Source of the DNA: Candidatus Poribacteria bacterium
GTDB lineage: Bacteria > Poribacteria > WGA-4E > PCPOR2b
Direction: 5' to 3'
Length of the DNA stretch: 64,000 nt
Assembly: GCA_003635265.1 (NCBI GenBank)
Contig: PYIZ01000050.1
Span: 62,001 to 126,000 of the forward strand
Numbering within the stretch: the stretch's first letter is position 1; every line of letters starts with the position of its first letter. The translations under genes were made by a program, and so were the position numbers. Under the pieces are notes generated by a model. That model was given only the letters and a program-made list of their open reading frames with translations. It had not been told where the DNA came from and did no database searches. Below, in pieces: positions 26,724-61,918 of the stretch.

Positions 26724-27014
26724 TTATCGGGCAACCTGTTTGAGCCACCCCCACATCGTGAATTGCTTGTCCGCAGGCGCAACTGCAAAAGCAGGACTAT
26801 ACCACGCAGGCTGACGGTCATGTGCGAAAGGATTATTAGTGAGGTTTTGGGGATTCCCACCATCGGCATCCATCATGTAGATCTCCCAGTTTCCAGTCCT
26901 ATTGGACTCAAAGGCAATTTGTGCCTGTGCATCGGCATCTACCATCAGTGACGTCAGACCCAAGAAGACAACGCTCGCTCGCACGAAATATGCGAGATTG
27001 TATCTCGGTTGCAT
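26724..27014 (-). CDS. Minimal PD40 protein: signal peptide, one blade, conserved C-terminal tail
   Basis: 96 residues. It has the same signal peptide type as the larger paralogues (QPRYNLAYFVRASVV..., processed after a DAQA-like site), then one complete PD40 blade ([28 protein letters not shown]), then the shared tail AFAVAP..KQFTMWGWLKQ. All the others in the array have six blades, so this looks like an internal-deletion product joining the first and last blades. AAGGAGG precedes ATG, with the array's 30-bp spacer upstream. A single blade cannot close a propeller, so if functional it might oligomerise or act only through its tail. Confidence 0.75.
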   Translation of the reverse strand: MQPRYNLAYFVRASVVFLGLTSLMVDADAQAQIAFESNRTGNWEIYMMDADGGNPQNLTNNPFAHDRQPAWYSPAFAVAPADKQFTMWGWLKQVAR

Positions 27015-27044
27015 CTGCTGTACCTCCTTTTTTATTCAGGTCAA

Positions 27045-27074
27045 TTATCGCGCGATCTGCTTGAGCCATCCCAT
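27045..27074 (-). pseudogene. Orphan PD40 C-terminal tail (remnant)
   Basis: On the minus strand this reads M-G-W-L-K-Q-I-A-R-stop, the last codons of the PD40 family tail (MWGWLKQ...AR) with one codon lost. It lies 4 bp after the stop of the metallopeptidase gene. It is followed by the usual 30-bp spacer and the start of the 26724 gene. It marks where a PD40 gene once ended. Confidence 0.75.
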
Positions 27075-27078
27075 TATA

Positions 27079-31041: not shown

Positions 31042-31995
31042 TTATCGCACAACTTGTTTAAGCCATCCCCACATTGCGAATTGCTTACCTGTCGGAGCAA
31101 CTGCGAAAGCAGGACTATACCACGCAGGATCCACCTCTTGCGTCAAAGGACTGTTTGTGAGCTGTTGAAGATTCCCACCATCGGCGTCCATCACGTAGAT
31201 GTCCCAGTTTCCATTCCTCTTGGAATCAAAGGCAATGCGTTTGCCATCAGGAGACCAAGAGGGAGAACTGTCATCCCAGCGACTGTCTGTGAGTTGTTGA
31301 GGATTCCCACCATCCGCGTCCACCACGTAGATAGCCCTACGGGAAACGAAGGCAATGCGCTTGCTATTGGGAGACCAAGAGGGACTCCAGTCACTACGGC
31401 GAGGACTATTGGTGAGGTTTTGAATTTTCCTGCCATTGGCGCTCATCACGTAGATTTCTGCCCAGTTGTGATCTCTATAGGAAACGAAAGTAATGTGTTT
31501 GCCATTGGGAGACCAAGAGGGTGAATGGTCATCATGGGGATCATTGGTAATGTTTTTAAGATTCTTACCATTGGTGTTCATTACGTAGATTTCCCAGTTA
31601 CCGTCCCTATCGGAAGCGAAGGCGATATGTTTGCCGTCCGGTGACCATGAGGGCAACAAGTCACTATGATGATTTTTTGTGAGGTTGCGACGCCTCCTAC
31701 CATTGGCGTTCATCACGTAGATTTCCCAGTTATCATCCCTATTAAAAGTATTAAAAGTAAAGGCAATGCGTTTGCCATCGGAAGACCAAGATGGATACCT
31801 GTAATCATTGGGATTTTTGGTGAGGTTTTGCGGATTGCCCCCATCGTCGTCCATCACGTAAATGTCCGCGTTGCCGTTCTCGCTGGACACAAAGGCAATC
31901 TGTGCGTGTGCGTTGCCACTTACCATCAGTGACATTAACCCTAAGAGGACAACACTCGCTAAAATGAAATATGCAGGATTGTATTTCCGTTGCAT
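31042..31995 (-). CDS. Exported six-blade PD40 (TolB-like) propeller protein, fifth in array
   Basis: 317 residues from ATG at 31995 with GGAAGG upstream; eight in-frame codons before it include that site. There is a signal peptide to about residue 30 (SGNAHA), then six PD40 blades of about 43 residues with cores such as IYVMNTNGKNLKNITNDP and PSWSPDGKRIAF, then the tail AFAVAPTGKQFAMWGWLKQ. Blade 5 is shortened. PD40 repeats build the TolB-type beta-propeller that binds peptides or proteins. It is the last intact member before the inserted metallopeptidase gene. Confidence 0.88.
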   Translation of the reverse strand: MQRKYNPAYFILASVVLLGLMSLMVSGNAHAQIAFVSSENGNADIYVMDDDGGNPQNLTKNPNDYRYPSWSSDGKRIAFTFNTFNRDDNWEIYVMNANGRRRRNLTKNHHSDLLPSWSPDGKHIAFASDRDGNWEIYVMNTNGKNLKNITNDPHDDHSPSWSPNGKHITFVSYRDHNWAEIYVMSANGRKIQNLTNSPRRSDWSPSWSPNSKRIAFVSRRAIYVVDADGGNPQQLTDSRWDDSSPSWSPDGKRIAFDSKRNGNWDIYVMDADGGNLQQLTNSPLTQEVDPAWYSPAFAVAPTGKQFAMWGWLKQVVR

Positions 31996-32025
31996 CTGTC
32001 GTTCCGCCTTCCTTCTCAAAGGCAG

Positions 32026-32982
32026 TTATCGCACAACTTGTTTAAGCCATCCCCACATCCTAAATGCCTTGCGGACAGGTTCAGCTGCAGAACCATCAGG
32101 AAACCACGCAGGATGGGATTCATCTCCAAAAGAACTGTTAGTCAGGTTTTGCGGGTTTTCCCCATCGTCGTCCATCAAGTAAATTTCCCAGTTACCATCC
32201 CTATCAGAGGCGAAAGCAATGCGTCTGCCGTTAGGAGACCATGAGGGAAACTTATCAGCCGCCGGATGGTTTGTAAGGTTCTGAATATTCTGCCCATCGG
32301 CGTCCATCACGTAAATGTCGATGTCACCATCCTTAGGCGCAGACGTAAAGGCGATCCGTTTACCGTTAGGGGACCATGAGGGGGCCCAGTTATCACGCAG
32401 ACTTCCAGTGAGGTTTTTAGACTTCCCTCCATCGGCGTCCATCACGTGGATGTCCCAGTGGGCACCCCTATGGGAGGCAAAGGCAATGCGCTTGCCATCT
32501 GGGGACCATACGGGATAACGGTCAGTACGGCGGTGACTTCCAGTGAGTTGTTGAATGTTCCTGCCATTGGCGTCCATTACGTAAATGCCTGATCTCCGTT
32601 CCCTATCAGAAGCGAAAGCGATGCGTTTGCCGTCAGGAGACCATGAAGGTTCCCACTCATCTTGATGACTGTTAGTGAGATTTCGGCTTTTTCCGTCATC
32701 TATGTCCATCACGTAGATGTCCCAACTTCTATTGGTCTGGGCAGCGAAGGTGATGCGTTTGCCATCTGGGGACCATGAGAGAAAATCGTCAGCCCAGCGA
32801 TTGTTGGTGAGTCGTCGAAGATTCCTGCCATTGGGATCTATCATATAAATATTCACAGTGTGAATCTTCTCAGACGTAAAGGCAATTTGTGCCTGCGCGT
32901 CAACACCTACCATCAGCGGCATCAGACCCAAAAGAACAGCGTACGCTAGCATGAGATATGTAAGATTGTATCTCCGTCGCAT
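32026..32982 (-). CDS. Exported six-blade PD40 propeller protein, fourth in array
   Basis: 318 residues with ATG at 32982. The signal peptide ends near GVDAQA. Six blades follow, with more variation than its neighbours (for example IYMIDPNGRNLRRLTNN, DIHVMDADGGKSKNLTGS). The tail differs before the end (GSAAEPVRKAFRMWGWLKQ) and has lost the FAV part, yet keeps MWGWLKQVVR exactly. Spacing to both neighbours is 30 bp. Confidence 0.88.
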   Translation of the reverse strand: MRRRYNLTYLMLAYAVLLGLMPLMVGVDAQAQIAFTSEKIHTVNIYMIDPNGRNLRRLTNNRWADDFLSWSPDGKRITFAAQTNRSWDIYVMDIDDGKSRNLTNSHQDEWEPSWSPDGKRIAFASDRERRSGIYVMDANGRNIQQLTGSHRRTDRYPVWSPDGKRIAFASHRGAHWDIHVMDADGGKSKNLTGSLRDNWAPSWSPNGKRIAFTSAPKDGDIDIYVMDADGQNIQNLTNHPAADKFPSWSPNGRRIAFASDRDGNWEIYLMDDDGENPQNLTNSSFGDESHPAWFPDGSAAEPVRKAFRMWGWLKQVVR

Positions 32983-33012
32983 CTGTTATGCCCCCTTCCT
33001 TCTCAAAAGTGG

Positions 33013-33969
33013 TTATCGCGCGATCTGTTTCAGCCCTCCCCACATCGTGAACCTCTTACTCGCAAGAGCCACTGCAAAAGCAGAGCGAAGCCATGTAGGT
33101 TGAGTTTCAGCTGCTAAAGAATTTTTGGTGAGATTTTGCGGATTTCCGCCATCGGCATCCATTACGTAGATATCCAAGTTACCCTCCCTATCAGAGGCGA
33201 AGACAATGTGTGTGCCGTTAGTAGACCATGAGGGATCACGATCAGTAAAGTGGGGATTTTTTGTGAGGTTTCGAGGGTTTCCCCCATCAGCGTCCATCAC
33301 GTAGATGTCTGAGCGCAAGTTGTGCCAATCTGTAACCCTAGATGTGAAGGCGATGCGTTTACCACTCGGAGACCATGAGGGATGCCAGTCAGTACGGTGG
33401 TGGCTTTTAGTGAGGTTTCGAGGATTCCTATCATTGACAGCCATTACGTAGATGTCATGGTGGACTTCCCTTCGAGACCTAGAATGGAAGGCAATATGTT
33501 TGCCATTAGGAGACCATGAAGGGTGAAAGCCAGCAGAGTGATGTTTTTTGGTGAGTTTTCTAATATTTTTCCCATTGGGGTCCATTACGTAAGTGCCCAT
33601 GGGATCCCTATAAGAACTGAAGGCAATGCGTTTGCCATTAGGAGACCATGCAGGATAATAGTCATCTGCCGGATTGTTTGTGATATTTTTGGGATTTTCT
33701 CCATCGGCATCCATCACGTAGATTTCCCAGTTCCCATCTCTCTTGGACTCGAAAGCAATGCGTTCACCGTCGGGAGACCATGAGGGACGCCGGTCCTCCG
33801 CGGGATTGTCTGTAAGTTTTCGAGGATTTCTTCCATCAGCGTCCATCACATAGATTTCCCGGTTCCCATCCCTATCAGACACGAAGGCAATCTGTGCCTG
33901 TACGTCAACGCCTACCATCAACGTCAAGAGGACAACCGTAGCTATTGCGAGAGTGTATCTCCGTTGCAT
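33013..33969 (-). CDS. Exported six-blade PD40 propeller protein, third in array
   Basis: 318 residues with ATG at 33969 (GAAGGAGG eight bases upstream). It has a signal peptide (GVDVQA), six blades (first blade [20 protein letters not shown]), and the tail [19 protein letters not shown], where WGW has become WGG. Blades 4 and 5 carry short insertions ([15 protein letters not shown]). It is presumably periplasmic or surface located, as a binding propeller. Confidence 0.88.
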
Positions 33970-33999
33970 CTGCTGTGCCTCCTTCTTTCTCAAAGTTAG

Positions 34000-34926
34000 T
34001 TATTGGACGACCTGTTTCAGCCACCCCCACATCGTGGGTTGTTTACCCACAGGCGCAACTGCAAACGCAGGTCGATACCAAGTAGGTTCATAGTCAAATG
34101 CTAAAGGATTGTTTGTGAGTTGTCGAGGATTTTGTCCATCGGCATCCATCACATAGATGTCCGCCTTTCCATTCCTTCCGATGTAAGAAAAGGCAATGCG
34201 TTTGCCATCGGGGGACCAAGAGGGATCAAAGTAGCCCCAGGCATCGCCATCTTTGGTGAGGTTGCGATGATTTTGTCCATCAGCGTCCATCACGAAGATG
34301 TCCCAACCCCCTCTATTAGACACGAAGGCAATCTGTTTGCCATCAGGGGACCAAGAGGGTGACCCATCACCACGACGGTGTTGAGTGAGTCTTCGATGAT
34401 TTTGTCCATCAGCGTCCATCACGTAGATGTCCTCGTTCCCATCCCTATCAGACACGAAGGCAATGCGTTTGCCGTCAGGGGACCAAGAGGGAGAATGGTC
34501 AACCGCAGGATTATCTGTGAGTCTTTGAGGATTCTGCCCATCGGTGTCCATCACGTATATTTCACCGTTCCCATCTCTATCAGACACGAAGGCAATGCGT
34601 TTGCCGCCAGGAGACCATGAAGTGTGAAAGTCATCCGCCGGATTGTTTGTGAGGTTCTGAAGATTCCCACCATCGGCGTCCATCACGTAGATTTCCCAGT
34701 CCCTCTCGAAGGCAATCTGTTTACCGTCCGGTGACCATGAGGGATCGTCCTCATCCTCGGGATGATTGGTGAGTTTTCGCTGATTCTTTCCATCGGTGTC
34801 CATCACGAATATGTCCTCGTTCCCATCCCTATCAGATACGAAGGCAATCTGTGCCTGTGTGTCAACGCCTACCGCCAACGTCAAGAGGACAACTGTAGCT
34901 AGCGCGAGAGTGTATCTCCGTTGCAT
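34000..34926 (-). CDS. Exported six-blade PD40 propeller protein, second in array
   Basis: 308 residues with ATG at 34926 (GGAAGGAGG upstream). Its signal peptide is nearly identical to that of the third array member, so the two are recent duplicates. There are six blades with highly regular cores ([18 protein letters not shown]); blade 2 is short ([14 protein letters not shown]). The tail is AFAVAPVGKQPTMWGWLKQ. The 30-bp spacer before and after is conserved. Confidence 0.88.
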   Translation of the reverse strand: MQRRYTLALATVVLLTLAVGVDTQAQIAFVSDRDGNEDIFVMDTDGKNQRKLTNHPEDEDDPSWSPDGKQIAFERDWEIYVMDADGGNLQNLTNNPADDFHTSWSPGGKRIAFVSDRDGNGEIYVMDTDGQNPQRLTDNPAVDHSPSWSPDGKRIAFVSDRDGNEDIYVMDADGQNHRRLTQHRRGDGSPSWSPDGKQIAFVSNRGGWDIFVMDADGQNHRNLTKDGDAWGYFDPSWSPDGKRIAFSYIGRNGKADIYVMDADGQNPRQLTNNPLAFDYEPTWYRPAFAVAPVGKQPTMWGWLKQVVQ

Positions 34927-34956: not shown

Positions 34957-35928
34957 TTATCGTGCGACCCGTTTCAGCCACCCCCACGTTGTGAATTGCT
35001 TACCCGCAGGATCAACTGCAAAAGCAGGGTCATACCATGCAGGATTAGTGTCATCATCGGGATCCTGGGTGAGATTTCTCGGATTTCCTCCGTCAGCGTC
35101 CATCACGAAGATTTCCGGCTGCTTCCTAGCCCTATTAGACGAGAAAGCAATGCGTTTACCGTCCGGAGACCATGAGGGGGCCCTATCCTTAGAGGGATTG
35201 TTAGTAAGATTTCGCTGATTCTTCCCATCGTCGTCCATCACGTAGATTTCATGGTTCCCATCCCTATAGGAATCAAAGGCAATGTGCTTACCGTCCGGAG
35301 ACCATGAGGGATTTTCGTCACGACTGGCATTCTTGGTGAGGTTTCGCCGATTTCCTCCATCGGTGTCCATCACGTAGATTTCTGCCGCCCCATCCCTATC
35401 AGACATGAAGGCAATGCGTTTACCGTCCGGAGACCATGAGGGATGCCAATCATTAATGGGATTGTTAGAAAGGTTTCGCGGATTCGTTCCATCGGTGTCC
35501 ATCACGTAGATTTGCCAGTTCGCATGAAAATCCGCAATCGTCCTATCCCCACTAGAAGTAAAGGCAATGTGTTTACCATCCGGAGACCATGAGGGATGCC
35601 GATCATTAACGGGATTGTTAGTAAGGTTTCGCGGATTCGTTCCATCGGTGTCCATCACGTAGATTTCAAGGTTCCAGTCCCTACCAGACACGAAGGCAAT
35701 CCGTTTACCGCCCGGTGACCATGAGGGCTCCAAGTCACCATGGCGATCATTGGTGAGTCTACGTAGATTCTTCCCATTGGCGTCCATCACGTAGATTTCA
35801 TAGTTCCCATCCCTATCAGACGTAAAGGCAATCTGTGCGTGTGCGTCAACGCCTACCATCAACAGCGTCATTCCCAAAGCTAAAACGCTAGTTAAAATGA
35901 AATGTGCGAGAGTGTATCTCCCTTGCAT
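34957..35928 (-). CDS. Exported six-blade PD40 propeller protein, first in array
   Basis: 323 residues with ATG at 35928; the open frame extends upstream, but the array-typical AAGGAGGCACAACAG leader fixes this start. A signal peptide ends at GVDAHA, then come six blades (blade 3 has a TIADFHAN insertion), then the tail AFAVDPAGKQFTTWGWLK. It is first in the minus-strand array, so its upstream region (35929-36370) should hold the array promoter; I see no consensus promoter there. Confidence 0.88.
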   Translation of the reverse strand: MQGRYTLAHFILTSVLALGMTLLMVGVDAHAQIAFTSDRDGNYEIYVMDANGKNLRRLTNDRHGDLEPSWSPGGKRIAFVSGRDWNLEIYVMDTDGTNPRNLTNNPVNDRHPSWSPDGKHIAFTSSGDRTIADFHANWQIYVMDTDGTNPRNLSNNPINDWHPSWSPDGKRIAFMSDRDGAAEIYVMDTDGGNRRNLTKNASRDENPSWSPDGKHIAFDSYRDGNHEIYVMDDDGKNQRNLTNNPSKDRAPSWSPDGKRIAFSSNRARKQPEIFVMDADGGNPRNLTQDPDDDTNPAWYDPAFAVDPAGKQFTTWGWLKRVAR

Positions 35929-52254: not shown

Positions 52255-54102
52255 ATGAGAATTCAGAAAATCTTTCTAGGTACGATTTGGTTTTTCATCA
52301 GCCTGATTGTTCCAATTTTCGGTTTTGCTCAAATACACACATCAGGAAATGTCGAATTCCACATAGTAGGCGAGGGTTCGCTTGCCGCCAGTGGAGAAGG
52401 TGGGCTTGCTAACAACTTTAGATTTCCGCAATTTGGAGGGTCCTACTATCTCCACGAGCTATCAGAGATTTGGATTGGTGATGCAAATGGAAATGTGGCG
52501 AGTTCATGGGATTTAAATCTTGAGGAACCCGGTCCCCTCAGAATTGGGGAGTGGGCAGCCGCACCAATGAATGTCGTAAGAGTAGATCCAGATGAGCGAC
52601 AGGCAATTATAGCACGATACGATTCCACTGGAACCGCTGGTTTCCCTCTCAATATTGCAGTTGGTCAGCAGAGTTTTTCTTGGAGCACCGCTAATCATCC
52701 CGATGCAGACGATTTCGTTGTGATAAGGTTGACTGTCAAAAACAACGGCAATGGAGAACTTGAGGGTATATATGTCGCAATGATGGCAAATTGGGATGTC
52801 GATGGGGCAGATTTAGCAGCTGGAGAATTAAGCCGGGATTGGGTGGATTGGGATGAAGCACATCAAACGCTATTTACCTATGATGGAGATGATACCGATG
52901 AGCTCAATCCGGTGCATACGGGGCTCAGCTTGCTGGATGGAAAGTTAAATACCCATCAAATTATCCCGTTTTTCGATCTTGAGAACCGACCAATCCTAGA
53001 CCTGTTTTTAGATGAAGGTCGATCTCTTTTCATGGCTAATCCGAATATCTTTACTGCCAGAAAGGCCCATTTAGAGGCACTTAACCTTCCACCTTGGGAT
53101 TATGTATCCATTATTTCAGCGGGACCTTATGACATTCCAGCCAAGCAATTTATCGTTGTTACTTTTGCACTTGTTGCTGGCGAAAATTTAGCGGACCTAC
53201 GGAAAAATATCAATGCGGCGAAAACAGCGACCTTTACGCCGCAACGATTGACCGCCGAAGTTGTAAGAGGAACTGTCCGGTTGAAATGGGAGGCAGCAAT
53301 CAATCCAAGCGTGACTAACTATGCTGTCTTGAGGCGGACGAAGAGTGGAAGTGGGTTCCGGCAGGTTGGGCGAATTGTCAGGGATACTACCTTTGACGAT
53401 ACAGAAATCCGGGGCGGCGTGGAATACACCTACAAGATTCTTCCCGTTCAGTCCAGCGGACAGCCGCTTGAATTTGATTCCTCAGAAGTTAGTATCAGCC
53501 CGGATCATTTTCCGGATACACCGGTCGGCTTAACAGCGACACACGACGGAGACCAAATTATCCTCGGTTGGACAAAATCTACACAGAATATCAGCCGATA
53601 CTTTATCTATCGTAACCACACCGGTCGTAGCCCATGGACGCAGATTGCATCGGTTCCGTCCGGAGTCTCTACTTATGTTGACCGCGATTTCTATCCGGGC
53701 TTGCTGTATTTCTACGCAATCACCGTGGCGAATCCAGCAGATGAAGAGAGTCAACTCTCCCAGAGCGTGAATGTCACTATCCCTGAGGAAACCATCGCAT
53801 CCCCCGCATTGAACTTAGACAAGGTAATCTTTGTCCCCAATCCATATCGACTGAACGGGGGTTCGCAGCCAATGGAATTCCGCAATCTGCCTGACCGTGC
53901 AACCATCCGAATCTACAACAGTACTGGCGATCTCATCAAACAGATTGACCATCGCAGCAACACCTCAATTCAACGTTGGAATGGGCGGAACGAGGTAGGG
54001 GAACAGATCGCCCCCGGTATCTACGTTTATCACATTGAAGCCTTGAGGGAGGGCCAAAGGGGAAAGAATTGGGTGAGCGGAAAGTTCGCGGTGATCCGGT
54101 AA
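52255..54102 (+). CDS. Secreted protein with fibronectin-type III repeats and FlgD-like tail
   Basis: 615 residues from ATG at 52255. Signal peptide to about residue 25 (...FGFAQ). The first 330 residues form a beta-rich domain with GNVEFHIVGEGSLAASGEGG. Two fibronectin-like domains follow (about 345-440 LTAEVVRGTVRLKWEAAIN and 445-520 LTATHDGDQIILGWTKST). The end is a FlgD-like unit: FVPNPYRLNGGSQPMEF, RIYNSTGDLIKQI, WNGRNEVGEQIAPGIYVYHI. Such tails serve as sorting or attachment signals in several phyla. Its tail class differs from the WGxIK tail of the LamG cluster beside it. Confidence 0.85.
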   Translation: MRIQKIFLGTIWFFISLIVPIFGFAQIHTSGNVEFHIVGEGSLAASGEGGLANNFRFPQFGGSYYLHELSEIWIGDANGNVASSWDLNLEEPGPLRIGEWAAAPMNVVRVDPDERQAIIARYDSTGTAGFPLNIAVGQQSFSWSTANHPDADDFVVIRLTVKNNGNGELEGIYVAMMANWDVDGADLAAGELSRDWVDWDEAHQTLFTYDGDDTDELNPVHTGLSLLDGKLNTHQIIPFFDLENRPILDLFLDEGRSLFMANPNIFTARKAHLEALNLPPWDYVSIISAGPYDIPAKQFIVVTFALVAGENLADLRKNINAAKTATFTPQRLTAEVVRGTVRLKWEAAINPSVTNYAVLRRTKSGSGFRQVGRIVRDTTFDDTEIRGGVEYTYKILPVQSSGQPLEFDSSEVSISPDHFPDTPVGLTATHDGDQIILGWTKSTQNISRYFIYRNHTGRSPWTQIASVPSGVSTYVDRDFYPGLLYFYAITVANPADEESQLSQSVNVTIPEETIASPALNLDKVIFVPNPYRLNGGSQPMEFRNLPDRATIRIYNSTGDLIKQIDHRSNTSIQRWNGRNEVGEQIAPGIYVYHIEALREGQRGKNWVSGKFAVIR

Positions 54103-54357: not shown

Positions 54358-55212
54358 TCACCTCCGCGCTTTAATCTCGCCCCATTTAACGGCTATCTTG
54401 CCAGCAGGTTCGACCGCAGCGACTGGAACATATTTGTCGAGTGACTTCCCACGGTCCCCTAGTTCTTTGGCTTCTTTTACTTGAGCAGCGGTCAGTACAT
54501 GACTGAGGACCACCACTTCATCCATGATGCCTTGGACATATCCCAACTGATCTCGGCGGACTTTGCCAGCGTCCGGGTCGCGCAAATCGTGGCCGATGGT
54601 CAACGGGAATTCAGTTGGCTGAAACGCTCCCCTTTGTTCCTTGACCACTTTTTCCTTCCCATTGGTATAGACTCTGACCTCTTTGCCGTCGGCAACTGCG
54701 GCAACATGAAACCAGTCATTCGCCACAAGAAAATCTGGATCTACCGCAGCCGTTCGTCCACCTTCCGTATTGGCATCAAATGCGAACCCGCCTAGTTTAA
54801 ACCCTTCACGAAACGTTCGCAGTGAATAAGAAGCCCAAAATCGCTTGTTGGACTCCTTAAAAGGCGCGTTTTTCCAGACCAAGGACTGATCTCTTCCGAA
54901 ATCGGGTCGCGTAAATTTAACCCAGCACATCAACGTGACCTGATCCTTCGCATTCAGACTGTTGTCATGGGGAACCTCAAAGTAGGAGTCTGCCCCTTCC
55001 TCTAGTACAACGCCGCCGCCGACCTTGCCCTGTGGCGTCCACGCAGCACCTCCTTTGAATTCTCCGTGGTTGTTATTTGGGGAAGAATCCTTGTGTGCAT
55101 TCGGTTTGGCATCAAACGTCCAATAAGCGAGGAGTTTGGCATAAACATCCATCGAAAAAGAACCGAGAAGGAAGATGAGCACTCCCCCAAAAATGATAAA
55201 TCGTCGAGACAT
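54358..55212 (-). CDS. Exported LamG-domain protein 7 (last in array)
   Basis: 284 residues with ATG at 55212 (AGGAGG upstream). The signal peptide ends near MDVYAK. A LamG-like jelly roll (Laminin_G_3 type, about 28-250) starts LLAYWTFDAKPNAHKDSSPN, then has LEVPHDNSLNAKDQVTLMCW and VRVYTNGKEKVVK, and ends LTAAQVKEAKELGDRGKSL. The tail is PVAAVEPAGKIAVKWGEIK. LamG domains bind glycans or proteins. It is the most diverged of the seven at its tail start. Confidence 0.9.
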   Translation of the reverse strand: MSRRFIIFGGVLIFLLGSFSMDVYAKLLAYWTFDAKPNAHKDSSPNNNHGEFKGGAAWTPQGKVGGGVVLEEGADSYFEVPHDNSLNAKDQVTLMCWVKFTRPDFGRDQSLVWKNAPFKESNKRFWASYSLRTFREGFKLGGFAFDANTEGGRTAAVDPDFLVANDWFHVAAVADGKEVRVYTNGKEKVVKEQRGAFQPTEFPLTIGHDLRDPDAGKVRRDQLGYVQGIMDEVVVLSHVLTAAQVKEAKELGDRGKSLDKYVPVAAVEPAGKIAVKWGEIKARR

Positions 55213-55277
55213 TGGTCATACCTCCTGTTAGTTGAACTAAACCCCGCTAAAGTGTTGAAATCATAACAAAGATTAAA

Positions 55278-56153
55278 CTACTTTGTCATCTTGATCTCGC
55301 CCCATTTAACCGCTAACTTACCTTGAGGTTCCACTCCGAAGACAGGCTGGAAACTCTCAAGCGATTTCCCTTTTTCGCCCAACTCCATTGCTTCTTTGAT
55401 TTGACCTGCAGTCAGTGCATGGTCTAAAATCACCACTTCATCCATGATACCCCGAACAAATCCCAGGAAATGTCGAGCCTCGGGTTCATTCGGATCGCGC
55501 AGATCAAACCCGATTGTCAACGGATCATCAGAAGGTTGAAATACCCCCCGCTGGTTGCCAACTGCTTTCTCTTTTCCGTTGGTGTAGACTCTAACTTTTG
55601 TACCATCAGCAACCCCTGCAACATGATACCACTCATCCACGACGAGCGGAAAATCCGGATCAATTGTAGCCGCCCGTGCCTCCGTCATATTTGCGTCAAA
55701 CGAGAACGAGCCTCGATTAATCCCAGGGCGGTAGAGACGCAAAGCATACGAAGTCCAGAATCGCTTGTTTTCCGCAAAAGGAGCATTTTTCCAAATCAAG
55801 GAACCATCTTCTCCGAAGCCTGTAAAAGCACCGGGATCCGTGAATTTGACCCAACACATCATGGTTATTTGCCCCGTTTTCACATTCAAACTCTCATGAT
55901 GAGGAACTTCAAGCCAAGTTTCTTGACCATTCGCTAGCTGCAGCGCTCCCTTTACCTTGCCCTTGTCCGTCCATTTTGCTTCACCGATGAACGACTTCGG
56001 TTCTCCATGATTGCGGTTTGGAGAGGAATCCTTCCCTAAATTATTTTTATCCTCGAAAGCCCAATAACCGAGGAGTTTGGCATCAGTGCTAATCAAGGGG
56101 CAACAGAAAAGATAGATTAACACGATACCCAAAACCAACATGATACGAAACAT
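55278..56153 (-). CDS. Exported LamG-domain protein 6
   Basis: 291 residues, ATG at 56153 with AGGAGGG upstream. Signal peptide (VLGIVLIYLFCCPLIS, cut before TDAK), LamG domain with FEDKNNLGKDSSPNRNHGE and the paired sheet segments GYVRGIMDEVVILDHALT-like near the end, and the tail PVFGVEPQGKLAVKWGEIK. A KTGQITMMCWVKF version of strand 3 is found. The 65-bp gap to member 7 has no terminator. Confidence 0.9.
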   Translation of the reverse strand: MFRIMLVLGIVLIYLFCCPLISTDAKLLGYWAFEDKNNLGKDSSPNRNHGEPKSFIGEAKWTDKGKVKGALQLANGQETWLEVPHHESLNVKTGQITMMCWVKFTDPGAFTGFGEDGSLIWKNAPFAENKRFWTSYALRLYRPGINRGSFSFDANMTEARAATIDPDFPLVVDEWYHVAGVADGTKVRVYTNGKEKAVGNQRGVFQPSDDPLTIGFDLRDPNEPEARHFLGFVRGIMDEVVILDHALTAGQIKEAMELGEKGKSLESFQPVFGVEPQGKLAVKWGEIKMTK

Positions 56154-56249
56154 TGACCACCCTCCTATCTGTGTCCGTAGCAGAATTCGCGAGAATATGG
56201 GGAGTTTAGCAACCCCTGCGGTGAATCAGGGAACTACTAGTCCGAACCC

Positions 56250-57107
56250 CTACCTCTCCGCTTTAATTGCGCCCCATTGAGTGGCTAATTTGTCCTCGGG
56301 TTCAACAGCGAAAATGGGATTGTACCCTTCGAGCGGCTTTCCTTTTTCGCCCAATTCCATTGCTTCTTTGATTTCGGCACCGGTCAATGCCTTGTCAGCG
56401 ACGATAACCTCATCGATGACACCGTTCATAAAAGCAAAATGTATTAATATGGGACGCAAATCATGCCCAATCGTTAGAGGGAGGTCGGAAGCCTGAAACT
56501 CACCCCTTTGTGGCCCCTTTCCGGTTTCTTTTCCATTAGTATAGACTCGGATTTCCGTGCCATCGGCGGTCGCTGCGATGTGAAACCAGTTTTCTTCCAA
56601 GTCATCCACTTCAGGAAATTTTTTATCGACAACCGCGCTGCGCCCCTCTGTCATATTGGCATCAAATCCGAAGCTTCCAAATTGCGATTTGGGACGCCAT
56701 ATGCGTAAAGCGTAAGATGCCCAAAACCGCTTGTTGGTTTCAAAGGGTCCATACTTCCAGATCAAGGACTGTTCCCGGCCATCACCTGTAAAATCGCCGG
56801 GATTACCAAATTTTGCCCAACACATCAGCGTAATCTCGTCCTTCACGTTGAGGCTATCATCATGAGGCACTTCAAGCCAAGACTTGCCGTCAAATTTTAT
56901 CCCGCCGCCTACTTTACCCTTTGCGGTCCATTCTGCAGACCCTTCGCCTTTGAGTTCCCCATGATTGCGATTTGGAGACAAATCCTTGCCAATGTCTTTT
57001 TTAGTCTTGAAAGCCCAGTAGCCAAGGACTTTTGCATCAGTCTCCATCGTCAAACAACATAAAAGGCAGATCAACAAAACCCAAGTACCTAAAACGGTAC
57101 GAAACAT
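56250..57107 (-). CDS. Exported LamG-domain protein 5
   Basis: 285 residues from ATG at 57107, which follows AAAGGAG at eight bases; longer frames include that site. Signal peptide (WVLLICLLCCLTMETDA), LamG domain (ITLMCWAKFGNPGDFTGDG, RVYTNGKETGKGPQRGEF), and the tail PIFAVEPEDKLATQWGAIK. It is very close to member 4 in coding sequence and in the upstream spacer, so it is a recent duplicate. Confidence 0.9.
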   Translation of the reverse strand: MFRTVLGTWVLLICLLCCLTMETDAKVLGYWAFKTKKDIGKDLSPNRNHGELKGEGSAEWTAKGKVGGGIKFDGKSWLEVPHDDSLNVKDEITLMCWAKFGNPGDFTGDGREQSLIWKYGPFETNKRFWASYALRIWRPKSQFGSFGFDANMTEGRSAVVDKKFPEVDDLEENWFHIAATADGTEIRVYTNGKETGKGPQRGEFQASDLPLTIGHDLRPILIHFAFMNGVIDEVIVADKALTGAEIKEAMELGEKGKPLEGYNPIFAVEPEDKLATQWGAIKAER

Positions 57108-57179
57108 CCAAAATTCTCCTTTCATCTTAAAACCAGATTGGGCAGCGGGCGTATCTTTGATTTTAGACACAGGCAATCA

Positions 57180-58037
57180 CTACCTCCGTGCTTTAATCGC
57201 ACCCCATTGGGTGGCTAATTTGTCTTCAGGTTCAACAGCAAAAACGGGGTTGAACCCCTCGATTGACTTTCCTTTTTCACCCAATGCCATTGCTTCTTTG
57301 ATTTCAGCGGCGGTCAGCGCCTTGTCGGCAACTACCACTTCATCCATGATACCCCTGACGAAAGCGTGATGCGCTAATATGGGACGCAAATCATGGCCAA
57401 TCGTTAGAGGGAGATCGGAAGCTTGAAACTCGCCCCTTTGGGGTCCCTTCCCTGTCTCTTTGCCGTTGGTATAGACTCGGATTTCGGTTCCATCAGCGAC
57501 CGCTGCAATGTGATACCAGTTTTTTTCGATGTCACCTTGTGCAGGAAATTTTTTGTCGACAGCTGCACTGCGCCCCTTTGTCATATTCGCATCAAATCCG
57601 AAACTACCGAACTCTGATTTGGGACGCCACACGCGCAAGGCGTAAGAGGTCCAAAAGCGTTTGTTTGTTTCAAACGGTCCATACTTCCAGATTAAGGACT
57701 GCTCTCGACCACCGCCCTCGGCAAAATCACCAGGATTACTAAATTTAACCCAACACATCAGGGTTACTTGATCCTTGAGGTTAAGACTATCATCATGAGG
57801 GACTTCAAGCCAACCATTATCTAGTTGTAACCCACCACCTACCTTGCCCTTGGCATTCCATTCGGCGGTGCCTTGTCCCTTCAACTCTCCATTGTTGCGG
57901 AATGGTCCCGAATCTTTGCCAACCTCGTTTTTGGTATTGAAAGCCCAATAGCCGCGAACCTTTGCGTCAGCATTCATTGTTGACCAACACAAAAGGCAGA
58001 TTAGCAGAACCCCGGTACTTAAAATGATACGAAACAT
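57180..58037 (-). CDS. Exported LamG-domain protein 4
   Basis: 285 residues from ATG at 58037 (AAAGGAG upstream). Signal peptide (GVLLICLLCWSTMNADAK), LamG domain with SLNLKDQVTLMCWVKF and WRPKSEFGSFGFDANM, and the tail PVFAVEPEDKLATQWGAIK, identical to member 5 over most of its length. The intergenic segment to member 5 is also strongly similar to the one between members 4 and 3, showing that the duplicated unit included the spacer. Confidence 0.9.
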   Translation of the reverse strand: MFRIILSTGVLLICLLCWSTMNADAKVRGYWAFNTKNEVGKDSGPFRNNGELKGQGTAEWNAKGKVGGGLQLDNGWLEVPHDDSLNLKDQVTLMCWVKFSNPGDFAEGGGREQSLIWKYGPFETNKRFWTSYALRVWRPKSEFGSFGFDANMTKGRSAAVDKKFPAQGDIEKNWYHIAAVADGTEIRVYTNGKETGKGPQRGEFQASDLPLTIGHDLRPILAHHAFVRGIMDEVVVADKALTAAEIKEAMALGEKGKSIEGFNPVFAVEPEDKLATQWGAIKARR

Positions 58038-58111
58038 TGGACATTCTCCTTTCATCTTAAAGCCAAATCGGGTAATGAACGCATCTGTTTGATTTTAGAC
58101 ACAGACAACCG

Positions 58112-58972
58112 TTACTTCCTCGCTTTAATCTCACCCCATTGCGTGGCTAATTTGCCTTCGGGTTCAACAGCAAAGACGGGATTGAATCCCTCAAGTGACT
58201 TTCCTTTGTTACCCAACTCCATTGCTCCGTTGATTTGAGCCTCAGTCAGCGCTTTATCTACAATTACAACTTCATCAATGATCCCGAAGAGAAACTCACG
58301 CCCGCCCAGCAAGCCGGGACGTAAATCGTAGCCAATCGTCAAGGGAAGATCTGTTGCTTGAAATTCCCCCCGTTGCGCGGCAGCTTTCTTCTCTTTGCCA
58401 TTGGTATAAATTCGGACTTCTGCACCATCAGCGACACCCGCGATATGATACCATGTTTTGTCGGCATCCCCTGGGTCAGGGAAGTCCGGATCTGCTGCCG
58501 CACTTCGCCCTTTTGTCATGTTGGCATCAAAGCTGAAGCTGCCAAACTTGGTATGCCTGCGCCATACCCGCAAGGCATAAGAGGTCCAGAATCGCTTGTT
58601 TGTCGCAAATGGCCCATTCTTCCAAACAAGGGACTGATCCCGGCCTGTACCGCCAAATGGATCGCCCTCGCCGCTAAATAGAACCCAACACATCATTGTA
58701 ATCTGATCCTTCACGTTGAGGCTATCATCGTGAGGTACTTCAAGCCAACCACTCTTTAGCTTCAACCCGCCGCCCACTTTGCCTTTTGCAACCCATTCGG
58801 CGGATCCCGCACCTTTCGTTACTCCATCGTTGCGGTTCGGAGAGGAATCCTTGCCAAGATCCTTTTTGCTGTTGAAAGCCCAGTAGCCGAGGAGTTTGGC
58901 ATCAACGGTTACCAAGGGAAAGCAGAGGCAATAAATGATGACACAACTCAAAATGATCAATCGTCGAGACAT
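58112..58972 (-). CDS. Exported LamG-domain protein 3
   Basis: 286 residues from ATG at 58972 (AAAGGAG upstream). Signal peptide (SCVIIYCLCFPLVTVDAK), LamG domain with WAFNSKKDLGKDSSPNRNDG and WRRHTKFGSFSFDANMTKG, and the tail PVFAVEPEGKLATQWGEIK. It has an extra GREFLFGIIDEVVIVDKALT variant before the tail. Confidence 0.9.
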   Translation of the reverse strand: MSRRLIILSCVIIYCLCFPLVTVDAKLLGYWAFNSKKDLGKDSSPNRNDGVTKGAGSAEWVAKGKVGGGLKLKSGWLEVPHDDSLNVKDQITMMCWVLFSGEGDPFGGTGRDQSLVWKNGPFATNKRFWTSYALRVWRRHTKFGSFSFDANMTKGRSAAADPDFPDPGDADKTWYHIAGVADGAEVRIYTNGKEKKAAAQRGEFQATDLPLTIGYDLRPGLLGGREFLFGIIDEVVIVDKALTEAQINGAMELGNKGKSLEGFNPVFAVEPEGKLATQWGEIKARK

Positions 58973-59056
58973 TGATAACACTCCTTTCATCGAAACAACC
59001 TATCTGTCCTTTGGTCCAAGGGGATAGATAGTATCAAATCGTGTTATTGGTCCGTT

Positions 59057-59923
59057 TCACTTGCTTCCTGCTTTAAGTTCCCCCCATCTGACAGCTAATT
59101 TGCCTTGGGGGGCGACGTCAAAGAGCAACTGGAAATTGTCGAGCGACTTCCCTTTTTCACCTAACTTCATCGCTTCTTTGACTTGGTTTGCGGTTATTGC
59201 CTTATCGAGAACAATCGCTTCATCGATCAGTCCAAAATGATAGGGCTTGGAGCCACCGCGGTCGGGTGGAATGCGTAAATCAAAGCCAATCGTTAACACC
59301 TGCTCCGAAGGTTTGAACTCGCCCTTCTGGTCGGCGGATGCTTTTTCGACTCCGTTGGTGTAAAGTCGCACCTTTGTGCCATCGGCAGTTGCTGCAATGT
59401 GATACCATTCGTTTACTTCGGGGTGGTCTTTGTCCCCGGGGGCTGTAAACACACGTCCCTCGGTCATTTGAGCTTCAAATATAAAACTTCCCAACTTCTT
59501 TCTTGGACGCAGCTTTGCCAGCGAATAGGAGGTCCAGAATCGCCGGTCTTTCTGATCCCCTTCTAATATAAAGGGTCCATTTTTGTAAATCAAGGACACC
59601 TCGCTAGATTCCCCTAAAGCACCGCCCTCAAAATTTGCCCAACACATTAGAGTAATCTGATTTTTGGGGGTGAGACTGTCATCATGCGGGACCTCAAGCC
59701 ATGAGAGCCCATCCAATTTCAAGGCACCGCCTACTTTCCCCCTCCCATCATGGGCGGCAGCCTTTTTCGGCTCGCCGTGATTGTCCAAGCCCGAAGAGTC
59801 TTTCCCTAATTTATTTTTGTCATCAAACATCCAGTAACCGAGTACTTTGGCATCAACGTGGCTAGGCAACACGCTGAGAAAATAAATACACAAAATCACA
59901 AGCATTGGTACGATGCGTGACAT
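59057..59923 (-). CDS. Exported LamG-domain protein 2
   Basis: 288 residues from ATG at 59923 (AAAGGAGG upstream). Signal peptide (VILCIYFLSVLPSHVDAK), LamG domain with MFDDKNKLGKDSSGLDNHGE and LTPKNQITLMCWANF. It carries an insertion GPFILEGDQKDRRFW that it shares with member 1. The tail is LLFDVAPQGKLAVRWGELK. Confidence 0.9.
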   Translation of the reverse strand: MSRIVPMLVILCIYFLSVLPSHVDAKVLGYWMFDDKNKLGKDSSGLDNHGEPKKAAAHDGRGKVGGALKLDGLSWLEVPHDDSLTPKNQITLMCWANFEGGALGESSEVSLIYKNGPFILEGDQKDRRFWTSYSLAKLRPRKKLGSFIFEAQMTEGRVFTAPGDKDHPEVNEWYHIAATADGTKVRLYTNGVEKASADQKGEFKPSEQVLTIGFDLRIPPDRGGSKPYHFGLIDEAIVLDKAITANQVKEAMKLGEKGKSLDNFQLLFDVAPQGKLAVRWGELKAGSK

Positions 59924-60018
59924 GGATAGCCCTCCTTTTGCCAAAAAAACCACTATCCATCACAATACAGATTGTAGATAGTGGGTCTAGAATCATATTT
60001 GCACAGCGCGCAAACCGC

Positions 60019-60885
60019 TTATTGTCTTGTCGATTTAATTGCGCCCCACTGCATGGCTAATTTGCCTTTGGCTTCGACCGAAAAAATCGCCGGCATATTG
60101 GTGAGAGACTTCCCTTTTTCACCGAGATTAAATGCCTCTTTAATCTGATCCGGGGTCAGTGCTACATCGAGAATCATCACTTCATCTATGGTTCCCCGCA
60201 GGTGACGTCTCGCGCCGCCGACACGATCCACCGGAACACGGTGATCGTAGCCGATTGTCAAAACCTGTTCGGAATTCCTAAACGGACCTCGTTGCACTCC
60301 TTTTGCTCTTTCTTGACCGTCTCGGTAGATTTTAATTTCAGTGCCGTCTCCCACTGCTGCGACATGGTGCCATTCATTCGGTTTGGGAATCAGTGGATCT
60401 CCGGGCAACACAGCCGATCGTCCGCCTTCTGTGTTTGCATCAAATCCAAAAGTGCCGCATGCACATCTATCGCGCCACTTGATCAATGCGTAAGAGGACC
60501 AAAATGTCCGGTCCTTCTTATCGCCTTCCAATATAAAGGGACCATTTTTATAGATTAAACTCTGTTCTTCCCCAGGACCGCTAAAACTGATCCAACACAT
60601 CAGAGTCACCTGATCCTTGACATTCAGGCTGTTATCATGGGGCACCTCAAGGTAGTGTGGAGCCTGGTCTCCTCCTCCTGTTAGGTTCAAGGCACCGCCG
60701 ACTTTTCCCTGTCGTGTCCAAGCACCTGCCTTCAGCTCTCCGTGATTTTTGAAGACTGACAAATCCTTCCCGACGTTCTTTTGGTCATCAAAAGTCCAGT
60801 AGCCGATGACTTTGGCATCCGCATCTATCGGGGACAGATCGATTAACGAAATACTAAATAGAAATAATAAAATGATGCGAGACAT
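60019..60885 (-). CDS. Exported LamG-domain protein 1 (first of the array)
   Basis: 288 residues from ATG at 60885 (GGGAGG six bases upstream; the longer frame is not needed). Signal peptide (LFLFSISLIDLSPIDADAK), LamG domain with WTFDDQKNVGKDLSVFKNHG, EVPHDNSLNVKDQVTLMCW, GPFILEGDKKDRTFW and CACGTFGFDANTEGG, and the tail AIFSVEAKGKLAMQWGAIK. It is preceded by the ThuA-like gene on the same strand (106-bp gap), so the eight genes may form one transcript. Confidence 0.9.
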   Translation of the reverse strand: MSRIILLFLFSISLIDLSPIDADAKVIGYWTFDDQKNVGKDLSVFKNHGELKAGAWTRQGKVGGALNLTGGGDQAPHYLEVPHDNSLNVKDQVTLMCWISFSGPGEEQSLIYKNGPFILEGDKKDRTFWSSYALIKWRDRCACGTFGFDANTEGGRSAVLPGDPLIPKPNEWHHVAAVGDGTEIKIYRDGQERAKGVQRGPFRNSEQVLTIGYDHRVPVDRVGGARRHLRGTIDEVMILDVALTPDQIKEAFNLGEKGKSLTNMPAIFSVEAKGKLAMQWGAIKSTRQ

Positions 60886-60991
60886 GATATTCCTCCCTAA
60901 TATTCTTAGTTGTCCTCCTTTATTCCTTATGAAAATTGTGGAAAGGGGGCAAGTCAGACTTGCCCCCAAGTATCGGGTTGACATCTACTGT

Positions 60992-61918
60992 TTATCGACC
61001 GGTCTTAATCTGCGCCCAAGTCATAGGTAGCTTTGACTTTGGATTCACCGCTCGAAGGTTTGAATCTTCAAACCAATCGATCATGTTCCGCCAGAGGAGC
61101 CACGAATTGCCTTGGCCCAGTTCCTTTTGCCCAAACCCCATGTTCATATTGGTAATTTCGGCACTGCCGCTCAGGACATAAGCCCCTCTTTGAACTCTTC
61201 CATAGACGATAATGGCAATATTGGGATCACCGATATCCTCAGCTGCTACATTAGCGTGTCCGGGCAGCAGACCAACATCGTAACCGGGGAAATCCCCGTC
61301 ACCCACGAAGGTCGGATCTGGGGACTTAGAGGTATCAATAATGCCACCTACCATATCTTTGGTCAGCGGTGTGCCCTCAACATACGCAAGGCAGCATTTG
61401 TCCGCCACAGGGAACCCAGCCAACGCCTTGTCCATGCCGTCCCACAGGGCTACCAACGGTCTATCTTCGGGATCCCGACCGCCGGTGCTGATGACGCCAT
61501 GGCCTTCGTCCATGAACTCTTTGAGTTTTTTGCCGTTGTCCTGAATCCACGCCTGCAAGTCAGGGCTATCCCGCCAAATATGGTAACTGAATACGACAAC
61601 ATCCCACTCACCGCTCCAGAGTTCCTTGTCAAATTTTGCGACATCGTCGCCAACGATCTCAAGAAAGTCTTGACCTTTTGTAAAGCCAAACTGCTCAAAG
61701 ATCGCTTCAAACCACAAACCTTGAAGTTTAGTTTTAATTTTTCCGCCATCAAACGTAGCGGTAGCTCGGGCAGGTGGTCCCCAAACTCCCCACCCTTCAG
61801 GTGAATTGTTAAATACTAAGAATGTGACATCACGTGCTTCAACGGTTGAGGGTAAGCCCCAAATGGCTCCAATAACAAGGAGCGTTATAAGGATTAGAGA
61901 TACTTTTATCCGTAACAT
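60992..61918 (-). CDS. Exported ThuA-like (class I amidotransferase-fold) protein with WGxIK-type tail
   Basis: 308 residues from ATG at 61918 (GGAGG upstream). Signal peptide (LILITLLVIGAIWGLPSTVEA), then an alpha/beta domain with WDVVVFSYHIWRDSPDLQ and KEFMDEGHGVISTGGRDPED, which resembles ThuA/Trehalose-utilisation-like domains. No nucleophile cysteine in a GATase elbow is visible. The end AVNPKSKLPMTWAQIK is a variant of the tail seen in the LamG and PD40 proteins. It is first in the likely eight-gene unit. Confidence 0.75.
   Translation of the reverse strand: MLRIKVSLILITLLVIGAIWGLPSTVEARDVTFLVFNNSPEGWGVWGPPARATATFDGGKIKTKLQGLWFEAIFEQFGFTKGQDFLEIVGDDVAKFDKELWSGEWDVVVFSYHIWRDSPDLQAWIQDNGKKLKEFMDEGHGVISTGGRDPEDRPLVALWDGMDKALAGFPVADKCCLAYVEGTPLTKDMVGGIIDTSKSPDPTFVGDGDFPGYDVGLLPGHANVAAEDIGDPNIAIIVYGRVQRGAYVLSGSAEITNMNMGFGQKELGQGNSWLLWRNMIDWFEDSNLRAVNPKSKLPMTWAQIKTGR

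Follow-up and report, generated by a model that had tools for sequence, protein, structure and literature searches.

The window, a stretch of 64,000 nucleotides from a Candidatus Poribacteria contig, carries fourteen genes between positions 26724 and 61918 whose products end in the same short motif. All fourteen C-terminal tails lie on the minus strand at the positions that a sequence-only reading of this DNA had given them, and they belong to six PD40-type proteins, seven LamG proteins, and one protein called 'ThuA-like'. The features of the region are as follows:

26727..26801, minus strand: tail of the one-blade PD40 protein (YSPAFAVAPADKQFTMWGWLKQVAR); top tail-HMM match of the genome
27079..30570, minus strand: 1163-aa secreted protein with a T9SS type A / FlgD-like C-terminal domain; TIGR04183 at 32 bits, cut-off 23
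31045..31119, minus strand: tail of a six-blade PD40 protein (gene 31042-32019); tail HMM, Pfam PD40
32029..32103, minus strand: tail of a six-blade PD40 protein (gene 32026-32982); tail HMM, Pfam PD40
33016..33087, minus strand: tail of a six-blade PD40 protein (gene 33013-33993); tail HMM, PD40 BLAST cluster
34003..34077, minus strand: tail of a six-blade PD40 protein (gene 34000-34950); PD40 BLAST cluster, NCBIfam propeller matches
34960..35034, minus strand: tail of a six-blade PD40 protein (gene 34957-36072); tail HMM, Pfam PD40
54361..54432, minus strand: tail of a LamG protein (gene 54358-55212); tail HMM, Pfam Laminin_G_3
55281..55352, minus strand: tail of a LamG protein (gene 55278-56153); tail HMM, LamG BLAST cluster
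56253..56324, minus strand: tail of a LamG protein (gene 56250-57176); tail HMM, LamG BLAST cluster
57183..57254, minus strand: tail of a LamG protein (gene 57180-58055); Pfam Laminin_G_3, outside the folded domain (AlphaFold)
58115..58186, minus strand: tail of a LamG protein (gene 58112-58990); tail HMM, LamG BLAST cluster
59063..59134, minus strand: tail of a LamG protein (gene 59057-59953); tail HMM, LamG BLAST cluster
60022..60096, minus strand: tail of a LamG protein (gene 60019-60984); tail HMM, Pfam Laminin_G_3
60995..61066, minus strand: tail of the 'ThuA-like' protein (gene 60992-61933); tail HMM

A six-frame scan of the window for the full tail context (Val, Pro, and Lys-x4-Trp-Gly/Ala-x-Ile/Leu-Lys shortly 5' of a stop) returned those 14 tails only. 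Column counts bore out the common pattern that had been claimed for them. With the Trp as position 0, the Trp itself, Lys at -5, Ile or Leu at +3, and Lys at +4 each occur in 14 of 14 tails, while Gly at +1 occurs in 13 (the ThuA-like protein has Ala), Val at -10 in 13, and Pro at -8 in 12. The consensus would read approximately [FL]-[AS]-V-x-P-x-[GD]-K-[LK]-x-T-x-W-[GA]-x-[LI]-K, usually followed by three to five residues and the stop, so that the tail comprises about 19 conserved residues and a few mostly basic terminal ones. Signal peptides, also predicted for every carrier, were recovered as signal-peptide-like N-termini in all 14 by our home-made rule. The claim that the carriers have three unrelated folds held for two of them, PD40 and LamG; the ThuA-like fold was not established, as that protein has no Pfam match and its AlphaFold model failed, at a pLDDT of 34.6. 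Its tail is retained in the five orthologues found, all from one genus, with Lys -5 replaced by Gln in one. The 1163-aa protein, which also has an M12-type peptidase match, LRR, and Ig-like regions, represents the conventional cargo-tail class within the same window as the short tails.

In the AlphaFold model of a LamG carrier, the domain spans residues 31-270, with 10-residue blocks at mean pLDDT 67-98, and confidence drops to 54-65 over residues 271-291, which hold the tail. The tail is thus outside the LamG fold in the model, and the reading as a core strand was rejected for LamG, the one of the two folds, LamG and PD40, that this test covered. Judging from the model, the tail is probably unstructured and not a folded domain. 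A fold search with the LamG model found concanavalin-like jelly-roll relatives at low identity. Among the 50 matches listed, most were clostridial neurotoxin binding domains and some arabinanase AbnA, and they probably reflect a common lectin fold.

Across the window's genome the motif is present on 99 proteins, 95 of them at the extreme C terminus. This set derives from 98 of 103 tail-HMM matches (the five left out were weak) and from 100 retained proteins, which comprised those at 7 bits or more together with two weaker, hand-added ones; of these two, the one with a truncated tail (L042, 3479-4162) was dropped and the other (L043, 6663-7631) was counted. The ORFs with C-terminal tails have a median length of 321 aa (n = 95), and Lys +4 is found in 95 of 95, although the search pattern that located them itself includes +4. 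By our home-made clustering the carrier bodies form 17 groups, of which 14 are BLAST clusters and three are fragments too short for BLAST comparison. Folds beyond those in the window are found elsewhere in the genome, and the body types include PD40 and Kelch propellers, LamG, 3-keto-disaccharide hydrolase-type, CBM9, and DUF3108-like proteins as well as unknowns. Signal-peptide-like N-termini were assigned by the same kind of home-made rule to 90 of 93 carriers and to 33 of 152 other ORFs, so the tail is not a feature of cytoplasmic proteins. Placement was equally strict in a further set of tail loci, where 170 of 171 matches were C-terminal.

The likeness of the tails exceeds chance, because when four carrier groups of this genome that are unrelated by BLAST are compared, the 17 tail columns average 43-58% identity and 17 columns farther upstream only 6-9%. 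Of 1,700 shuffled C-termini, none scored as high as 10 bits, compared with 80 of 85 real ones, a count that is circular in that these were first found with the same model. At the DNA level, identity of the tails between clusters averages 54% across 51 nt, and one PD40-type fragment at a contig end is a partner in each of the six most similar pairs. Tail codons vary synonymously while the residues stay fixed, which points to selection at the protein level and excludes a DNA-level element.

The tail is not limited to paralogues in the window. A tail-HMM scan of the phylum, which had been suggested as a check, gave matches in 84 of 84 Poribacteria genomes, with 32 to at least 107 per genome, 107 being the most candidates scored for any one genome. 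In a Bacteroidota-type control phylum it matched one genome out of 148. A pattern scan of GTDB returned at least 115 stretches, 109 of those listed being titled Poribacteria; with only six of the listed 115 lacking such a title, we rejected off-phylum matches as proof of broad spread. In two stretches with non-Poribacteria titles (L105 and L152) a similar motif is internal, and in L158 the motif is located 5' of a start codon. L120, where the tail sequence is good, is an isolated 28-aa frame and gives the sole match of its genome, and L151, one contig with the only two tails of an 'archaeon' bin, is probably misbinned. L094, however, led to a genuine second tail-bearing clade (G084/G237), deposited as Pseudomonadota, whose carriers have no BLAST similarity to those of Poribacteria, include one family of 13 members and one of five, and are flagged as lipoprotein-like, with lipobox-like N-termini, in 4 of 19 cases. 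Rfam gave no rRNA in the stretches of G237. This spread over folds, contigs, and clades excludes the copying of one tail among neighbors as the sole source of the pattern.

PEP-CTERM, IPTL-CTERM, GlyGly-CTERM, and LPXTG are portable C-terminal sorting tags that occur many times per genome; in each, basic residues come after a hydrophobic membrane segment, and a sortase or exosortase processes the tag. IPTL-CTERM even includes a Trp-Gly-x-Ile-like stretch. In the Poribacteria tail, by contrast, Lys directly follows Trp-Gly-x-Ile/Leu and the chain soon ends, leaving no hydrophobic segment, which excludes a membrane-anchored CTERM tag. Searching 50 tails at E<=10, with HMMER filters that drop many weak matches, gave no match in NCBIfam, whether to TIGR04183 or to a curated CTERM model. 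Against Pfam the sole match was SBDS, to one tail at E 0.055, and there was none to PF18962. No curated NCBIfam or Pfam model thus captures the tail, which looks like an undescribed address label.

Its closest functional parallel may be the cargo signals of T9SS, of which several classes exist; the type B model is TIGR04131. Like the type A domain (TIGR04183 / PF18962), the tail is C-terminal, is borne by Sec-exported proteins of many folds in many copies per genome, and has a conserved Lys close to the C terminus, and the same genome has both. Type A, however, is a beta-sandwich with a model length of 72 and several motifs including GxY, whereas the tail is about 20 aa, has an invariant Trp, matches neither model, and lacks GxY, which is absent from the column counts of the 99 tails with their 19-aa conserved block. 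T9SS cargo combines a Sec signal peptide with a C-terminal signal (PMC10202324), and one near-invariant Lys close to the C terminus of type A domains contacts PorV (PMC10994853). Prevotella intermedia has shortened T9SS signals, 43-55 aa long, for which the same binding to PorV is predicted. They resemble the tail as reduced signals beside long ones with a basic end, and differ in that they contain motifs B, D (GxY or GxN), and E and should form a three-stranded sheet by prediction; the tail is less than half as long as the shortest of them, and no common motif is apparent beyond the basic end (PMC11969387). Types B and C are likewise other C-terminal classes served by the same translocon. Type B is read via other carrier barrels (PMC10994853), type C is the signal on ChiA, and both differ from type A in sequence (PMC10202324); the tail is set apart from them by the absent NCBIfam match. 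The statement that the tail is unlike the T9SS tail was thus right about sequence, yet T9SS core homologues are present in the phylum.

The SprA model TIGR04189 matched 80 of 81 Poribacteria genomes at E<=0.001 and 0 of 14 controls, with a match above the equivalog cut-off in only 1 of the 81; most of the matched ORFs are about 2,150-2,300 aa long. The SprA-like protein of the window's genome scored 162 bits (E 8.9e-48), where the cut-off is 200. A search of PDB sequences with this protein found nothing relevant, and no other gene family occurs in more than 8 of 15 SprA loci. PorV_fam was above cut-off in 81 of 81 genomes, with 8 to 24 matches each and 14 in the window's genome, and matched 1 of 14 controls, none above cut-off. 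Peptidase_C25, the PorU family, was above cut-off in 80 of 81 genomes and 0 of 14 controls. The C25 protein of the window's genome scores 445 bits, above the PorU sortase cut-off of 420, and two scanned ones from another genome (G083) fall under it (385 and 379). All 8 of 8 C25 proteins share a His and a Cys in the AGHGG and LSCYNG blocks. At one locus (L211) a PorV_fam gene lies immediately 3' of a C25 gene. The GldM model matched none of the 81 genomes and no control genome either. TIGR04183 gave 52 matches in the window's genome, 50 above cut-off, in ORFs of 146-3,282 aa, and matched 3 of 14 controls, one above cut-off. Type A domains and short tails hardly overlap; the only four proteins carrying both (L060, contig C10) have a Leu-for-Trp copy of the motif just before the type A domain. 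Within 321 kb of tail loci from the window's genome we counted nine type A domains against about three expected, with a cluster in L060, and three in 864 kb of relatives' tail loci. Homology searches thus provide good evidence that type A cargo, SprA, PorV, and PorU homologues occur together in Poribacteria, with type A cargo counted in the window's genome and the PorU cut-off passed by one protein of that genome.

The proposal that the tail is a portable sorting, anchoring, or docking signal is supported by its C-terminal position, unrelated bodies, and signal peptides, from which we infer its function, and none of the three outcomes named beforehand as refuting it turned up, with the core-strand check made on LamG. 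The tail would be a short portable C-terminal signal on Sec-exported, mostly small single-domain proteins and would act in the envelope following Sec export. It is very likely that a common partner recognizes it and that carriers are sorted to or docked at the outer membrane or surface, and the tail is probably read at the outer membrane. The leading candidate for its reader is T9SS/PorV. That the partner in Poribacteria is a T9SS-type pathway, a PorV-family barrel with a SprA translocon, is a tentative suggestion, and the combined reading of a sorting or docking tail read by T9SS-type PorV/SprA is likewise one to which we give somewhat less than an even chance. In that case the tail would serve as a minimal cargo signal alongside the conventional type A domain, and PorU-type peptidases may or may not cleave it. 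Since nearly every member of the phylum has both, tail and T9SS show co-presence and not co-variation. Against a T9SS reader stand the missing GxY motif, the absent match to any curated T9SS model, the shortness of the tail and its probable lack of a folded structure, the mostly sub-threshold SprA matches, and two G083 C25 proteins under the PorU cut-off. In the second clade, the 16% sample of the G237 contig that gave no T9SS match is modest evidence against it, and the lipoprotein-like carriers and prepilin-type neighbors of tail genes also count on that side. Only just short of evenly balanced is the idea of a new tag class, about 20 residues long, free of a membrane segment, Trp/Lys-based, found phylum-wide and in an apparently unrelated lineage on unrelated carriers, whose receptor would differ from every sortase, exosortase, and T9SS signal-binding site known.

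The tail could instead dock or anchor its carriers to one abundant envelope component, such as an outer-membrane barrel, a surface polysaccharide, peptidoglycan, or a scaffold protein, with no role in secretion and with diverse proteins assembling on the platform. Most Pfam-named carriers are indeed lectin-like, carbohydrate-binding, or propeller folds, and a basic, probably unstructured tail with one invariant Trp resembles a short linear motif. In addition, the lipobox-like carriers of the second clade (4 of 19) would be membrane-anchored already, making a mere export signal less needed there. Strict C-terminal placement (95 of 99; 170 of 171) is more typical of free-ended or removed signals, and we consider docking alone rather unlikely.

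Neighboring genes in the second clade raise a different possibility, that the tail is a signal for type II secretion or type IV pilus-like export in both clades and that the T9SS of Poribacteria is coincidental. By a home-made rule, prepilin-type genes directly adjoin tail genes in 4 of 10 G237 loci (L227, L229, L231, and L232), one of them with a Pfam N_methyl match slightly below cut-off, while 20 evenly spaced G237 stretches (400 kb) held one other prepilin-type gene (L257) and the L227 gene again. Three of the four pairings, however, come from the five-member carrier family and the fourth involves a fragment, the 13-member family has none, and the rule gave no prepilin-type neighbors in Poribacteria among 34 loci of the window's genome, 109 of relatives, and 26 SprA/C25 loci. 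This route also draws on the second clade, where Poribacteria-derived SprA, C25, PorV, and type A HMMs were matchless in a 467-kb G237 sample, which amounts to about 451 kb once overlaps are removed and covers 16% of the contig. On the 321 kb and 864 kb of comparison tail loci the same HMMs gave SprA 0 and 0, type A 9 and 3, and PorV 1 and 3 matches; because SprA is matchless there too, the second-clade negative is modest evidence. We regard this export route as decidedly unlikely.

A common degron, processing, or quality-control tag of envelope proteins would suit a short free C terminus that lies outside the LamG fold whatever the body. That a removal tag should be fixed on 32 to more than 100 lectin-like and propeller-like proteins per genome, in 84 of 84 genomes, is difficult to square with selection for what these proteins do; we know of no precedent for one, and this reading is very improbable. 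Scarcely credible is a module spread by recombination and now neutral, with no common function, which the many tandem arrays of carriers (the window, L046, L047, and L050) would favor as a setting for copying, but which would decay, whereas tail DNA is only 54% identical between clusters, residues stay fixed as codons vary, and both orthologues and unrelated second-clade families keep the tail.

A 2014 study reportedly found no T9SS in Poribacteria. The core homologues described here run contrary to it and lie beyond the Bacteroidota or FCB group to which T9SS is restricted in the reviews consulted. Poribacteria are prominent sponge symbionts and remain uncultured. If the sorting and docking reading is true, the tail would be an address label for their surface proteins, and part of the secretome, 95 proteins in this genome, would become predictable from sequence.

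Translation of the genes and a six-frame scan of the window confirmed the 14 C-terminal tails that the sequence-only reading had described. Numbered from Trp as 0, Lys at -5, Trp, Ile/Leu at +3 and Lys at +4 are present in all 14, the one-blade protein included, and Gly at +1 in 13, with Trp 8-9 residues from the stop in each; Lys, Trp and Lys were invariant in an alignment of 13 of the tails. Of the three unrelated folds that had been proposed, two are supported by Pfam, PD40 (3 carriers) and LamG (3 carriers), and the remaining PD40-type and LamG carriers of the window fall into the same BLAST clusters. The third is unproven: for the ThuA-like protein there is neither a Pfam match nor a usable AlphaFold fold. 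Tailed paralogues stand in tandem arrays, five PD40 genes at window 31042-36072 and seven LamG genes at 54358-60984, as they do in the loci L046, L047 and L050; tailed genes are often duplicated locally.

The main alternative raised by the sequence-only reading was that the tail is a core strand of the fold. An AlphaFold model of a window LamG protein (44 sequences, mean pLDDT 85.9) gave block means of 67-98 for residues 31-270, falling to 54-65 for 271-291, where a helix at 280-290 is of low confidence; Val 274, Trp 284 and Lys 288 are the invariant residues of the tail. The tail is thus predicted to lie outside the confident LamG fold, which removes the core-strand alternative for LamG.

The window's own genome (G000, 5.3 Mb in 53 contigs; the window is C50:62001-126000) has 103 matches (E<=10) to an HMM built from 13 window tails. 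After rescanning of the matched regions, five weak ones excepted, 100 proteins were retained, of which 99 contain the motif, C-terminally in 95 of the 99. The four remaining copies, all in locus L060, immediately precede a type A domain (the conventional T9SS C-terminal cargo domain, TIGR04183) and have Leu in place of Trp, which seems dispensable once that domain follows:

L060:3162-6098 and 9054-11927, four PD40 paralogues with the Trp-to-Leu motif directly before the type A domain
L060:12097-13305, fifth Leu-bearing PD40 paralogue with no type A domain, ending soon after the motif

The bodies of the own-genome carriers form 14 BLAST clusters, plus three fragments too short for comparison, and separate clusters may have one fold in common, several being LamG. 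Pfam matches were obtained for 15 of 20 representatives (PD40, Laminin_G_3, Kelch, 3-keto-disaccharide hydrolase, CBM9, DUF3108-like and, on a fragment, a weak rhodanese match). Among 20 carriers from loci found by a DNA pattern scan, 8 matched (Laminin_G_3, CBM9, Kelch, right-handed beta-helix, LDL-receptor class B and, just below its cut-off, F5/F8 type C) and 12 had no Pfam match. Across 17 tail columns, the four largest BLAST-unrelated groups agree at 43-58%, versus 6-9% upstream. The expectation that the tail would occur on many folds held, as did its association with signal peptides. By a home-made rule applied to motif-bearing proteins of >=200 aa, signal-peptide-like N-termini were found in 90/93 own-genome carriers versus 33/152 other non-overlapping ORFs of the same loci, and in 133/148 carriers versus 157/480 other ORFs of the pattern-scan loci. 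Judging by their starts, most of the 15 misses in the latter do have a hydrophobic N-terminus, passed over by the rule, and one is truncated at the locus boundary. A lipobox-like start was flagged in 3/93 and 4/148, respectively.

The proposed scan of the phylum was run with a 50-tail HMM, which at E<=0.01 matched 84/84 Poribacteria genomes. Matches per genome numbered from 32 to at least 107, the latter being the maximum of candidates scored. In the phylum of a Sphingobacteriales bin, 1 of 148 genomes matched, there as a single partial match. The degenerate DNA pattern K-L/F-x-T-T-W-G-x-[IL/M]-K, run over 84,980 species, found at least 115 stretches, 109 with a Poribacteria title among the matches listed. 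When closed ORFs of these 115 listed loci are considered, 170/171 HMM matches lie within 12 residues of the stop, and 166 of the 170 tail genes lie in Poribacteria-titled loci. Two tailed genes, the only ones of their genome, stand on a contig (L151) binned under the name Thermoprotei archaeon; this contig is probably misbinned bacterial DNA.

A second clade, outside the set of 84 Poribacteria genomes, was reached through L094, a locus with two real tails in a bin that had been deposited as Pseudomonadota. Five tail matches occur in its genome, G084, and 12 in the relative G237, all on one 2.84-Mb contig; none turned up in the remaining 36 of the 38 genomes searched. Contamination is an unlikely source of the G237 tails because both genomes contain a comparable tandem arrangement of two tail genes. 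Nineteen tailed proteins from the two genomes sort into two families, of 13 and 5 members, and one fragment; at E<=0.01 BLAST finds no similarity between them and the bodies of the Poribacteria carriers. In the smaller family, two members contain ankyrin repeats and match M10/M43 peptidases weakly. A prepilin-type gene directly adjoins a tail gene in 4 of 10 G237 loci; three of these genes encode 580-680 aa and one 197, and three adjoin ankyrin-family carriers, possibly as pilin and exoprotein pairs:

L227:3661-5703, prepilin-type gene beside a tail gene
L229:12450-14195, the same
L231:507-2342, the same
L232:1463-2053, the same

The free C-terminus, probable disorder, rigid Lys/Trp/Lys spacing, many bodies and Sec export together suggest a tag read by something in the envelope. 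The carrier would be exported by Sec, after which an envelope partner would read the tail, itself probably unstructured. In Poribacteria this reader may be the T9SS, with several PorV-family members as possible readers. A 2014 study, in the portion available, described many proteins of Poribacteria as bearing TIGR04183 domains and did not find Por-system structural genes (PMC3909097). Contrary to that report, the phylum does have an SprA-like translocon and a PorU-type sortase, and its PorV family is expanded. SprA (TIGR04189) matches 80/81 genomes, mostly in ORFs of 2,150-2,300 aa, and is over its cut-off in only 1/81; PorV_fam is over cut-off in 81/81, with 8-24 matches per genome, and Peptidase_C25 in 80/81. 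The own-genome C25 protein passes the PorU sortase cut-off and two from G083 do not. The His of AGHGG and the Cys of LSCYNG are kept in 8/8 C25 proteins compared, PorU being described as a Cys/His protease in the accessible text of PMC10202324. Coordinates compared in several genomes (G083, G080, G081, G061), rather than counted systematically, place SprA ~28-35 kb from a C25 gene, and in L211 a C25 gene is followed by a PorV_fam gene. TIGR04183 has 52 matches in the own genome, 50 over cut-off, and matched 3 of 14 controls, 1 over cut-off. GldM was not found in the Poribacteria genomes, and the control genomes were also without a match. Relevant own-genome features are:

L189:8931-15464 (C48), SprA-like translocon gene
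L208:1061-7330 (C9), PorU-type sortase gene
C48:385279, C41:12018 and C44:92970, PorV_fam matches (14 in all)
L216:5279-9382 (C48), PorV_fam gene beside a 992-aa protein with a type A-like end by eye, an arrangement resembling known pairings of a barrel with its cargo, for instance PorQ/PorZ
window 53835-54038, + strand, end of the 623-aa ORF 52231-54102, a possible further type A cargo by a weak match to TIGR04183 (20 bits, under the cut-off)

We infer that the T9SS is the leading candidate reader because homologues of its core are found across the phylum, its cargo is marked by C-terminal signals, in type A signals an almost invariant Lys close to the end contacts PorV (PMC10994853, as far as available), reduced cargo signals exist (PMC11969387, likewise) and each genome has 8-24 PorV_fam matches. 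The strongest rival is a pure docking role with no part in secretion. The gene context of the second clade points to another, reading via prepilin-like partners, and this clade is the main, if modest, evidence against the T9SS: in a 16% sample of G237, HMMs built on Poribacteria T9SS proteins gave no match, a null of modest weight because the comparison loci likewise yielded no match to the SprA model.

The tail fits none of the NCBIfam models. Pfam gave a single match, of one tail to SBDS (E 0.055), which was taken as chance. Neither the tail nor Poribacteria T9SS machinery is described among the matches listed in the open-licence literature, mostly titles and abstract starts, or in the available portions of PMC3909097, PMC13052501 and PMC7313196. 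The portable sorting, anchoring or docking signal first proposed appears to be a new sequence class of a kind already known, the portable C-terminal sorting tags.
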